A DNA stretch of 6,560 nt, taken from positions 1-6,560 of the forward strand of contig JAHJSF010000075.1 in assembly GCA_018830405.1 (NCBI GenBank). Reading direction: 5' to 3'. The stretch is from Nitrospinota bacterium. Its GTDB lineage: Bacteria > Nitrospinota > Nitrospinia > UBA9942 > JAHJSF01. A program made the position numbers and the translations under genes. Positions 1 to 6,099 of this stretch are shown here, piece by piece. Each line of letters opens with the position of its first letter. The stretch's first letter is position 1. The notes beneath the pieces were generated by a model that worked only from the letters and a program-made list of their open reading frames with translations, was not told where the DNA came from and did not search any database.

Positions 1-3000
1 CCGCTGTAATAGGTAACCCCTTTAACCTGATGCACCTTAAATATATGTAGATCGTGGTATTCCTTTTCTACAGCTTTGACAAGATCACAGTGGGCTATGG
101 TTACACCGCTAAGTCCGAAAAAGCGTGATTTTAATTCCTTGGCCAGCGATTCAACCGCCTCCCTGTCACCTCCCACAACCGTCTCTGAGGGGGTATTTAC
201 TATAAGCAGATAAACCCTCTTCTTTTTCTTGATAGCCTCTCTCACCTTATCTGAAGGGGCGCTAATGATCCCTGTGACCCAATCGACAGGGATTGATTTC
301 GGAATCTTCCAGGCTCGTCGGGCTGTGTCGTATGTTTCGCCAAGTTCATGGCTGAAGAGGGGGGACTCTGTTAATCTCTTAAACATCTCGTCCCTGTCAC
401 GCCAGGCCCTAAGTGAAAATAGGCTAACTGTTTCACCGAGACTGTAACCTATGGCTCGGCTCGGCCTTAGCCCGAAGGCCAGAGCCATATCTGTATAGAG
501 TGTCCCAACGGAGACCTGTCCCAGAAGTGTGTCGGTAGCATTTATCTTCTCTCTCCCCTTCAACCAAAACTTGCAGGGAGCGAACTGATTCTTGAGTAGG
601 CTATTGTCGGTATCCTGGTTATGGAGGAGTTCCGGCCATTCAAGGGCAATATCACGCCCCATCCCGACGAAGTGATTGCCTGAGCCGGGGTAGACAAAAG
701 CAATATCACCTTTGTCGGCTATCGGTTCATCCGAGAAGAATATATTATCTTTGCTCAGATATGATGTTGCCTCCTCATCACTCTTCAGAAAGGAGATAGA
801 TTTATCTATCTTGTGGGTTAAATCATTTTTCCCCTCAGTAACTATCGATAGGTGTATCTTCTTCGTCCCATCCATCCCCTTCATATCCCACCACTTTTTA
901 GCCAATCGCCGAATATTCTTGTTGGGGAACTCATACATTATCTCTTTCAACTGTTCTAGGGAGGCAGCTACCTCAGCCCTATCCACTCCGCTAAAGATGA
1001 ATAGGGCTTCCTTAATAGTGCTAACCGGAGAGACCCTATAGTTGCTGACTATCTTCTTATTATCGGAATAACCTCTAAGGATTGTTTCTCTGCAATTGCC
1101 GTCAATGCTGAGTGAAGCAACCGCTGCATACCGTTCCCCATCACTTTTGTTTCTGAGCCAATAGTGCCCTTTTTGAGGCAGATAGAGACTATGGTTTGAT
1201 AGATGTATCGGTTTTTTGAGATTCCTTATCGGAGGGATAATCTCATTCCGGAGAGCCAAGGCAGTCTTGGCAACAGAGGCAATGGCTGAGGCTGCCCCGG
1301 TGTGACCAATGTCTCCCTTAACAGAAGAGAGGGCGCAACATTTTTCTTTCTCTGGTCTAATAGTAGAGCTTAAGGCTTTAGCCTCAATCGAGTCTTCTTT
1401 GGCAAAGCCTGTTCCGTTCCCCTCTATAAGAGTTATACATGATGAATCTATTTGAGCCTCGTCACAGGCGAGTTGCAGAGCCGTTTTATAAGCATCATCT
1501 CCTGTTACGGATGAAGTTCCCTCTATAACTGCGTATATCTTATCCTTGTCTCTCTCAGCATCCTTAAGTGGTTTAAGGATTAGGGCCGCTGCTCCTTCCC
1601 CTAAAATAATCCCCTCTGAGCTGCTATCAAATGGAATACTATTTCCGTTGGTTGAAAGATGTGTACTTATCCTGGTTCCGGCTATGGCCCGGATATCGCC
1701 GGTCAAATCAACTCCTCCGACTATAGCCTGTTTTATAGTGCCATTATTTAGGAGGCGAATAGCTGTCTCAATCGCCTGCATAGAGGAACCCTCTTCAGAA
1801 GATATAGTAAAGCTGGGGCCGCCGAATTTAAACTCTCTGGCTATACGGCTGGCGACAATACTCCCCAAAGAACCAAGGGTGCTATTCGCAGTTAGGGGAG
1901 GGGAGGCGGTATCTTTTAGACTATCTAACCATTTTATCTCTTCCTCAGGAGTAAGGTTAAGACCAAGTTGTTTAATCCATTCCTTCCCTTTTTTCTCCAT
2001 CATCCAGCGGAGGTGGAAGTTGGTGGTGTTTAGGTCTAAACCTATTCCGACAAAGACACCGGTATCAAGTCCCTTTTCAGTAGATAGATTGGCATCCTTT
2101 ATCGCCCCGGCTGCCACCTTTAGCATAAGTAATTGCTGCGGCTGCATCTCCTTAAGTTCAAGAGGGGGTATTCGATATTGATTATTAGGGATAGATATAT
2201 GATCGATAAAGAAGCCCTTCTCATCTATGCCGGCCCCTTTTTTATCCGCCTCGGCCTTAATATGGTCCGCACCTCCCAATACCCTTTCGGCGAAGAGTTC
2301 TTTCGAATCAAACTTTCCGAAATGGGCATCTAGGCCAACTATGGCTATAGGCTCAACCTTAGGTTTGGTTATTGCCTTGGCAACCTTCTTTCCTTTTTTC
2401 GGAATATATTCTTCAAGTATCAGATGGGCATTTATCCCCCCAAATCCGAAGGCACTTACCGCTGCTCTGCGGGGGATATTCTTTCCTCTCGCTTTCCATT
2501 CCTCAGACTTTTTGAGGACGCGGAAAGGGGAATTGGTTAGATTTAGGTTTTTAGTGGGAGTATTGAAATTAGCAGTGGGGGGGAGGGTGTTATTCTTTAG
2601 GGCGAGGAGCATCTTTATTACTCCGGCAGAACCGGCAGCAGTTAATAAATGCCCTATGTTTGACTTAACAGAACCGATAACATGGTTCCCCTTTTCTTCA
2701 CCCCATACCTTCTTAAGGCTGGCTACTTCTACTGCATCACCGACAGGTGTTCCGGTGGCATGACACTCTATGATATCTATATCGCTCGGTTTCAAACCTG
2801 CTGATTTGTAGGCCGACTCCATCGCCCGAACCTGTCCGTCCGAATTGGGGGCGAGAAGGCTTCCACCTATATCGTTTGAAAGCCCAACCCCTCTTATGCA
2901 TCCATATATATGGTCCCCATCACGTTCCGCATCCGATAGCCTTTTAAGGAGGAGCATTCCGGACCCTTCCCCTACAACAAGGCCGTTTGATTTCTCATCA

Positions 3001-3740
3001 AATGGGGCGCTTACCCCGTCTGGTGATAGGGCGCGGAGTTGTGAGAAACCCATCTGGGTATAGAAACAATCCGGCCTCGATAGTCCTCCGGCCAGCATTG
3101 CATCGGCCCGGCCCGAAAGAAGTTCGTCGGCAGCCAGGCTTAGGGCGTAGAGTGAAGAGGCGCAGGCGGCATCAAGTGTATAAGAACCGCCGCCTAAGTT
3201 TAGGGCCTTGGCCAATATTCCGGCCGGAAGTCCGGCTGAAAATCTATTGATAGGGTCAATCGTTTTGGGGCTATCGATAAATTTATCCCCGAGAACCTTC
3301 TTCTCTATCTGACGGCCAAGATATTCAAAGGCTATCTCTGAAGATTTTTCTGAAGGGAGGACAAGATTCCCGATAATTACTCCGACTCGGCTAAGGTCTA
3401 AGTTATTTGTTAGCCCATCATTGAAGGCATCGGATCCGGCTCTTAATAGTAGGTGAAAGGCAGGGTCAAGTCCGGCGGCAAATTTGGGGTCTATATTAAG
3501 ACCTTTAAAGTCAGGCTTGAACCCATCTATAAAACAACCACGCTTAGAATAGGCTCTATCCAACTTCCCCTTTTCGGGGTGGTAGGCGGTATCAACAGGA
3601 ATAGGCCAACGTCCGTCGGGGACTTCACTGGCGGTATTTACCCCCTTTGATATATTGTCCCAAAAGTCATCAAGAGTAGGTGATTGGGGAAATATTCCCC
3701 CAATGCCGACTATTGCTATAGGCTCTCTTTTTATATTCAT
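1..3740 (-). CDS. Pfa-like multidomain synthase, KS-CLF-AT N-terminal portion (partial, runs off left edge)
   Basis: One uninterrupted minus-strand frame of 1246 codons from ATG at 3740, still open at the window edge. Domain 1 (residues about 7-460) is a complete beta-ketoacyl synthase with nucleophile Cys193 in DAACASSL, His327 in HATGT and Lys359/His364 in VKSNIGH. Domain 2 (about 463-890) has the same fold signature (EPIAIVG start, GPSFTI, VKGDIGH) but Glu650 replaces the Cys and Asn775 the first His, so it is chain-length-factor-like. After a linker comes an acyltransferase (from about 1015, FVYPGSG) with Ser1100 in GYSLGE and His1217 in AHC. KS-CLF-AT order resembles myxobacterial Pfa3, or PfaC fused to a PfaB-like AT; HglC-type synthases are an alternative. 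Dehydratase or other domains probably follow outside the window. By family it would extend acyl chains iteratively in the cytosol. The start fits because KS homology begins at residue 7, although the ribosome site is poor. The product is unknown. Confidence 0.9.
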   Translation of the reverse strand, partial: MNIKREPIAIVGIGGIFPQSPTLDDFWDNISKGVNTASEVPDGRWPIPVDTAYHPEKGKLDRAYSKRGCFIDGFKPDFKGLNIDPKFAAGLDPAFHLLLRAGSDAFNDGLTNNLDLSRVGVIIGNLVLPSEKSSEIAFEYLGRQIEKKVLGDKFIDSPKTIDPINRFSAGLPAGILAKALNLGGGSYTLDAACASSLYALSLAADELLSGRADAMLAGGLSRPDCFYTQMGFSQLRALSPDGVSAPFDEKSNGLVVGEGSGMLLLKRLSDAERDGDHIYGCIRGVGLSNDIGGSLLAPNSDGQVRAMESAYKSAGLKPSDIDIIECHATGTPVGDAVEVASLKKVWGEEKGNHVIGSVKSNIGHLLTAAGSAGVIKMLLALKNNTLPPTANFNTPTKNLNLTNSPFRVLKKSEEWKARGKNIPRRAAVSAFGFGGINAHLILEEYIPKKGKKVAKAITKPKVEPIAIVGLDAHFGKFDSKELFAERVLGGADHIKAEADKKGAGIDEKGFFIDHISIPNNQYRIPPLELKEMQPQQLLMLKVAAGAIKDANLSTEKGLDTGVFVGIGLDLNTTNFHLRWMMEKKGKEWIKQLGLNLTPEEEIKWLDSLKDTASPPLTANSTLGSLGSIVASRIAREFKFGGPSFTISSEEGSSMQAIETAIRLLNNGTIKQAIVGGVDLTGDIRAIAGTRISTHLSTNGNSIPFDSSSEGIILGEGAAALILKPLKDAERDKDKIYAVIEGTSSVTGDDAYKTALQLACDEAQIDSSCITLIEGNGTGFAKEDSIEAKALSSTIRPEKEKCCALSSVKGDIGHTGAASAIASVAKTALALRNEIIPPIRNLKKPIHLSNHSLYLPQKGHYWLRNKSDGERYAAVASLSIDGNCRETILRGYSDNKKIVSNYRVSPVSTIKEALFIFSGVDRAEVAASLEQLKEIMYEFPNKNIRRLAKKWWDMKGMDGTKKIHLSIVTEGKNDLTHKIDKSISFLKSDEEATSYLSKDNIFFSDEPIADKGDIAFVYPGSGNHFVGMGRDIALEWPELLHNQDTDNSLLKNQFAPCKFWLKGREKINATDTLLGQVSVGTLYTDMALAFGLRPSRAIGYSLGETVSLFSLRAWRDRDEMFKRLTESPLFSHELGETYDTARRAWKIPKSIPVDWVTGIISAPSDKVREAIKKKKRVYLLIVNTPSETVVGGDREAVESLAKELKSRFFGLSGVTIAHCDLVKAVEKEYHDLHIFKVHQVKGVTYYS

Positions 3741-3793: not shown

Positions 3794-4423
3794 CTATTCC
3801 CAAAACCTATCTTTGTAGATGGTGGAGTTGGCAAGTTCAATCTGCTTATGTCCCGTTTCATAATAGTCGATAATATTGAGCGCACCAAAGCTCTGTTGTA
3901 GGGAGTAGAAATTCTGAAGGGATGAATTGAGAAGATCGAGTAATATTATTCTATTCACCCCACCGTGGGCCACAATTACTATAGTTTCTCCAACGTGTGC
4001 CTGTAGCAATTCATCTATCTTGGGGAGAACCCTGGCCGATAGTTCTACAAGGGTCTCTCCCCCTTCAACCCTGTAATTAACTACATCGGCGTAGCGTTCT
4101 TTCACCTCTTCGGCATACATCTCTCTAATATGTGAAACTGTCTTCCCCTCCCATATCCCATAGTGGAGTTCTCTCAGTTCAGGGAATTTAATGACGCTTA
4201 AACCATGTTTGGCGGCTATCATCTCTGCCCCCCTTGAGGCGCGGAGTAGGTCGCTTGAATAGACCGCCTTTATCGGGGCCTCCCCTAGCCTTTCGGCGAT
4301 GATTTCATACTGCCTGACCCCGTCGGGAGAAAGGTCTACATCGTTATGCCCGTTATAAATCCATTCCTTGATATTGGCTACCTCTCCATGCCTTAATAGA
4401 AGCAGTCTTGTCTTATTATCCAT
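3794..4423 (-). CDS. Histidine phosphatase family protein (phosphoglycerate mutase-like)
   Basis: A complete 209-residue protein of the usual length for a single-domain histidine phosphatase. The phospho-acceptor motif RHGE is at residues 11-14 (His12). The other expected catalytic residues can be placed: Arg61 in SSDLLRA, the general acid Glu85 in ELRELHYGIWEG, and His153 in VAHGG. LSPDG (31-35) and EGGE (120-123) are also typical. No signal peptide or membrane segment is seen, so it is cytosolic. The family includes GpmB-like phosphatases and alpha-ribazole phosphatase (CobC). Sequence alone does not give the substrate, and no cobalamin genes lie nearby. It sits 53 bp upstream of the synthase on the same strand with no visible terminator between, so co-transcription is likely and a role removing phosphate from a lipid or polyketide intermediate is conceivable but unproven. 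The ATG is preceded by a short GAGAAG purine stretch. Confidence 0.9.
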   Translation of the reverse strand: MDNKTRLLLLRHGEVANIKEWIYNGHNDVDLSPDGVRQYEIIAERLGEAPIKAVYSSDLLRASRGAEMIAAKHGLSVIKFPELRELHYGIWEGKTVSHIREMYAEEVKERYADVVNYRVEGGETLVELSARVLPKIDELLQAHVGETIVIVAHGGVNRIILLDLLNSSLQNFYSLQQSFGALNIIDYYETGHKQIELANSTIYKDRFWE

Positions 4424-4569: not shown

Positions 4570-6059
<1,490 letters not shown>

Positions 6060-6099
6060 AGGCTTGCGATACAAAATAAATTAAAAAATAGAAAATATT

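Follow-up and report, generated by a model that had tools for sequence, protein, structure and literature searches.

The window analysed here, a stretch of 6,560 nt, is the entire contig C46 of a draft genome of 1.42 Mb in 185 contigs that is 87% complete. On its minus strand an open reading frame of 1246 aa starts with an ATG at position 3740, extends to position 3 and is open at the left edge. As the window is a complete contig, the truncation represents a break in the assembly and not the end of the gene. Two homologues can be aligned with this ORF over its full length at 45–50% identity, and consequently it is not a chance reading frame. A gene for a histidine phosphatase (3794–4423, minus strand) lies directly upstream on the same strand; its product reaches 153.9 bits with the model for alpha-ribazole phosphatase (CobC), just under the cutoff of 162.9. 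Further along, the genes for a P-II nitrogen regulator (4643–4981, plus strand) and a KamA-family radical SAM protein (4974–6074, minus strand) are convergent, with an overlap of 8 bases. The radical SAM protein reaches the cutoff of none of the aminomutase equivalogs.

Pfam recognized two ketoacyl-synthase domains and a weak acyltransferase (AT) match in the ORF, and NCBIfam a match to the PfaB-like AT family. The first ketoacyl synthase (KS; 2376–3725, minus strand) has an intact triad according to sequence and alignments, namely Cys193 in DAACASS, His327 in HATGT and His364 in NIGH, and it matches PDB 6riw with an E value of 2e-139. In the second domain (1041–2351, minus strand) Glu650 (SSEEGSS) replaces the Cys and Asn775 replaces the first His; the second His (His813) is retained. 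These exchanges are as would be expected of a chain-length factor (CLF), and this degenerate KS is referred to as the CLF. The AT domain (3–704, minus strand) is cut by the contig edge, which removes its last approximately 80 residues; Ser1100 in GYSLGE and His1217 in IAHC are present. The order KS, degenerate KS and AT on one chain, as stated in the original prediction, is confirmed by Pfam, motifs and alignments.

The AT was assigned to the PfaB type by its family match and by alignment with FabD and the AT of PfaA. The best match among solved structures is PfaBs (9ry8, E value 6e-46), whereas the next best reaches 2e-13. At the positions where the AT of PfaA has GHSYGE and PGQGSQ, the alignment shows GYSLGE and PGSGNH, that is, GYSxG is present and the malonyl-type PGQxQ is not. 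The tyrosine of GYSxG is specific for PfaB and is reported to be essential in the PfaB of Moritella, a terminal acyltransferase (PMC12895367). When the structure of the AT was predicted from an input of three sequences, the mean pLDDT was 42, too low for the model to be of use.

A search of the same genome, with the C-terminal region of a complete homologue as query, led to the missing part of the gene. Contig C38 encodes the missing 1038 aa in a frame running off its high end. The minus strand of C46 ends with AGCGG and the minus strand of C38 begins with AGCGG, and this overlap of 5 bases keeps the frame. Such a short overlap is by itself no proof; the main argument for the junction is the alignment across it (YYSGAKAE vs FYSGAWAR), which is gapless for the joined product with both homologues. 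Positions 3–3740 (minus strand) are therefore described as the 5' part of a pfaBC (Pfa3-type) gene, encoding residues 1–1246 of about 2283. According to Pfam and alignment, four FabA-like hotdog domains come after KS-CLF-AT in the joined protein of 2,283 aa, and the second and fourth of these retain the catalytic His (CHFADD and AHFYQD) in the alignment. The chain thus shows the arrangement of a PfaBC subunit, with an intact-triad KS preceding the CLF and tandem FabA-like dehydratases (DH) after CLF and AT. PfaBC ends after the fourth hotdog, and Pfam detected no AGPAT domain in the pfaBC gene or in L023/L024.

The linker between hotdogs 2 and 3 contains an insert of about 35 residues (C38, L037, about 2370–2510, minus strand) that is absent from both homologues and rich in CCTCCCC/GGGGAGG. 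Similar palindromic sequences are found at L037:23 and L037:528, so that the insert apparently derives from a dispersed repeat that went into pfaBC in frame.

A larger gene cluster had been expected to the left of the window. This was not borne out: the gene continues for about 3.1 kb and is followed by a methyltransferase gene and a short ORF, and pfaD-pfaA is located on another contig. The longest ORF of the methyltransferase gene (class I SAM, L037:579-1313, minus strand) shares 26 bases with the end of pfaBC, which makes co-translation possible. On contig C29 we found PfaD (TIGR02814, 621 bits, cutoff 449) and PfaA (TIGR02813, 1498 bits, cutoff 1010); PfaA is composed of a KS, a malonyl-type AT, two ACPs (each with LGIDSIK), a KR and a PKS-type DH. 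An Sfp-type phosphopantetheinyl transferase (PPTase) of 216 aa is encoded on C73, and no separate pfaB gene was seen. C29 and C73 therefore supply what a whole Pfa system comprises besides PfaBC, namely a PfaA with malonyl-type AT, tandem ACPs and KR, a PfaD and a PPTase, and all the parts that the original prediction had named (DH domains, tandem ACPs, KR, PfaD and PPTase) are present in the genome, on C38, C29 and C73. The pair pfaD-pfaA is flanked by unrelated genes, for a polyprenyl synthetase and a histidine kinase, and pfaBC by the phosphatase gene upstream and the methyltransferase gene downstream. The pfa genes therefore occupy at least two separate places in this genome. Judging by their sequences, it is nearly certain that these parts are present and belong to the families named.

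The relationships of the KS and CLF domains were assessed in a tree of 43 KS-type domains, a set without authentic HglC, enediyne or type C, D or I sequences known by name. The pfaBC KS falls together with PfaC-type KS domains from Moritella (PDB 6riw), Persicobacter, Streptomyces and Azospirillum with a support of 97/93; the Moritella entry is named ORF10 in the database and we take it to be PfaC. The CLF groups with PfaC-type CLF domains (support 100/100), and the KS of this genome's PfaA groups with PfaA-type KS (support 100/99). AU tests were set after the tree had been seen and their p-values are indicative; a forced grouping with the KS domains of modular type I PKS, outside of which the pfaBC KS is placed, was rejected (p-AU 0.001). 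A place among ordinary modular type I PKS, which the original prediction had named as an outcome that would speak against it, is thereby rejected, and its proposal of a Pfa-like secondary-lipid synthase with the fused Pfa3/PfaBC-type order is supported by the FabA-like domains on C38 and by the grouping of the KS with PfaC. CLF, AT and FabA-like domains speak against an enediyne PKS.

A resemblance to HglC had also been suggested. A synthase of the HglC or phenolic-lipid type, making glycolipids or resorcinol-type lipids, would have the same KS-CLF-AT order on one chain, and several Brocadiales genomes encode DH-less proteins of 1.4–1.7 kaa with a related KS region. However, HglC (type F) is described as KS-CLF-AT without DH domains (PMC3098273), and the four FabA-like domains on the PfaBC chain refute this identity. 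Moreover, the CLF sits with PfaC-type CLF, and a clade of the pfaBC KS with the DH-less Brocadiales proteins was rejected (p-AU 2e-45). We regard an HglC-type synthase as extremely improbable.

Shulse and Allen (2011, PMC3098273) connected clusters of type I, which contain pfaBC fusions, with ole genes and hentriacontanonaene, and a later study showed that Pfa is coupled to hydrocarbon synthesis through OleA, which draws 16:4 chains from the Pfa ACPs (PMC6463001). Because of these reports we searched the genome for ole genes. Contig C26 encodes OleA and an overlapping OleB; on contig C65 a gene for OleC precedes one for OleD, the latter truncated to a fragment of 154 aa. The best solved match of OleA is the OleA of X. 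campestris (3row, E value 7e-57), whereas FabH-type chains reach about 1e-18. OleC and OleD score highest with Shewanella-type olefin models, yet remain below the curated equivalog cutoffs. With this reservation, and with OleD being partial, all four Ole proteins are present.

The original prediction held that the product class could not be read from this half of the gene. The co-occurrence of ole and pfa genes now allows a product class to be argued. We propose that the malonyl-AT of PfaA loads malonyl units onto its tandem ACPs, which would be activated by the Sfp-type PPTase, and that the chain is elongated by the PfaA KS and the KS-CLF pair. The KR, the PKS-type DH, the FabA-like DHs and the enoyl reductase PfaD would together set the pattern of kept and reduced double bonds, and the PfaB-type AT would handle the long acyl chain at the end. 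OleA would then take polyunsaturated acyl chains from the ACPs and condense two of them head to head; reduction by OleD, lactonisation by OleC and decarboxylation by OleB would yield a long polyunsaturated hydrocarbon of the hentriacontanonaene type (C31:9). That Pfa and Ole are expressed and work together is inferred, as are chain length and number of double bonds. In this proposal the ORF is the 5' half of pfaBC and codes for the fused KS-CLF-AT-DH subunit of an iterative PUFA (Pfa) synthase of type I; taken as a whole, with the mechanism and the hydrocarbon product, it appears probable. Polyunsaturated hydrocarbons, C31:9 among them, are known to be made by Pfa together with Ole; here it is the host that is unexpected.

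The two enzyme sets could also serve different ends, the Pfa synthase making PUFA (EPA/DHA-like) for membrane phospholipids and OleABCD separately using chains from FAS II. Producers of EPA/DHA use just such a complete synthase that includes a PfaB-type AT. No operon ties the pfa and ole genes together, as they are distributed over at least five contigs, and a fab (FAS II) gene set on contig C142 means that OleA could use FAS II chains instead. On the other hand, OleC and OleD are slightly nearer to the Shewanella type than to that of Xanthomonas (FAS II), the two genomes with the closest relatives of this synthase encode both Pfa and OleA, and in the marine producers described in PMC6463001 OleA condenses Pfa-derived chains despite the presence of FAS II. 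We consider separate use possible, although rather unlikely, and prefer the hydrocarbon route.

The closest relatives of the gene were found in two Ca. Anammoxibacter genomes, OFTM134 and OFTM214, which both also encode PfaA, PfaD and OleA; a full and contiguous oleABCD was seen in one of them (OFTM214). In the host phylum the KS-CLF-AT gene occurs in 1 of 77 genomes, all of one class, and this single genome is the one studied here, which suggests horizontal transfer. Assigning the genome to Brocadiia on account of its best matches in Anammoxibacter was considered and dropped, because 77 genomes of a single class are too few for Planctomycetota. As the first genome scan covered close relatives only, nearer or intermediate holders may exist. 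The absence of the gene from the other 76 genomes, the fact that the pfa and ole genes tested have their closest relatives in Ca. Anammoxibacter, and the shortness of the contigs could also mean that the pfa and ole contigs were binned from another organism. The G+C content is uniform, though, with 45–48% over nine contigs compared to 39–41% in the Anammoxibacter loci, and the estimated contamination is 0.03%; protein identity to Anammoxibacter is only 45–63%, and hence these are not Anammoxibacter contigs. The placing of small contigs in this fragmented draft is supported by uniform G+C and low estimated contamination only and cannot be proven; we judge a binning artefact to be improbable.

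Both Anammoxibacter genomes contain hydrazine synthase alpha (PF18582). With these as positive controls, a search of the pfaBC-bearing genome for this one domain found none, and given its completeness of 87% the protein is likely absent. OFTM134 also encodes, some 9 kb downstream from its pfa genes, a protein of 452 aa with part of the middle domain of hydrazine synthase alpha (L111:9177-10535, minus strand); the full-size protein is encoded elsewhere. Both genomes (G060 and G061, 6–8 Mb) contain many type I PKS regions, with 65 and 58 matches to PfaA, whereas for Kuenenia none were reported (PMC2649909).

In the other genomes of the Anammoxibacter order that were examined the gene is missing or only more distant types are found, and all four distant types examined have a KS-CLF-AT chain without a FabA-like half of comparable length. 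In several of these genomes (L105–L108) KS-CLF-AT-type proteins of 1.4–1.7 kaa adjoin synthases of 2.6–2.9 kaa; they lie near Beijerinckia type P in the tree and represent a second, unassigned type of lipid synthase among the relatives of anammox bacteria. The anammox bacterium Kuenenia was reported in earlier genome studies to lack a polyketide synthase of the PUFA type (PMC2649909, PMC4790861), and our literature search on anammox bacteria with oleABCD or a PUFA synthase retrieved nothing relevant. The relatives described here show that at least two anammox genomes carry a complete set of Pfa proteins, one of them together with OleABCD. From this gene content a C31:9-type hydrocarbon is predicted in Anammoxibacter biomass. 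It also calls for caution in work on ladderanes, since Pfa may be the source of polyunsaturated chains in some anammox cells. Tentatively, and with considerable doubt, we suggest that the Pfa-plus-Ole set was transferred between an anammox lineage, that of Ca. Anammoxibacter, and a lineage with small genomes in another phylum. Long polyunsaturated hydrocarbons would then be a second unusual lipid of some anammox bacteria, made by a route unrelated to that of the ladderanes.

Compared with the marine PfaA/B/C/D systems of Moritella and Shewanella, KS and CLF are nearest to PfaC and the AT is nearest to PfaB, but here the PfaB-type AT is fused into PfaC. The myxobacterial Pfa1/Pfa2/Pfa3 systems (Aetherobacter, Minicystis; PMC8436480) share with the present one the Pfa3 order KS-CLF-AT-DH-DH', separate PfaD and PfaA, and a PPTase located elsewhere, whereas the C-terminal AGPAT of Pfa3 is lacking in our PfaBC. 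Clusters of types C, D and I likewise have a fused pfaBC and a separate PfaD; for types C and D the order is given as KS-CLF-AT-DH2, and type I has been proposed to feed olefin synthesis (PMC3098273). Compared by description, they differ in that pfaBC is unlinked from pfaDA here and the host belongs to another phylum. As in the hydrocarbon pathway of Shewanella with oleABCD and pfa (PMC6463001), both enzyme sets occur in one genome, but the genes here are unlinked and fused differently. The closest counterparts, Anammoxibacter OFTM134 and OFTM214, have the same three Pfa proteins with about 42–54% identity and an OleA with 63%; OleB, OleC and OleD are 55–56% identical to those of the contiguous oleABCD of OFTM214. 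The PfaA of Anammoxibacter has 3–4 ACPs compared to 2 here, and pfaD-pfaA-pfaBC are contiguous in OFTM134, whereas pfaBC stands apart in OFTM214 as it does in the genome described here.
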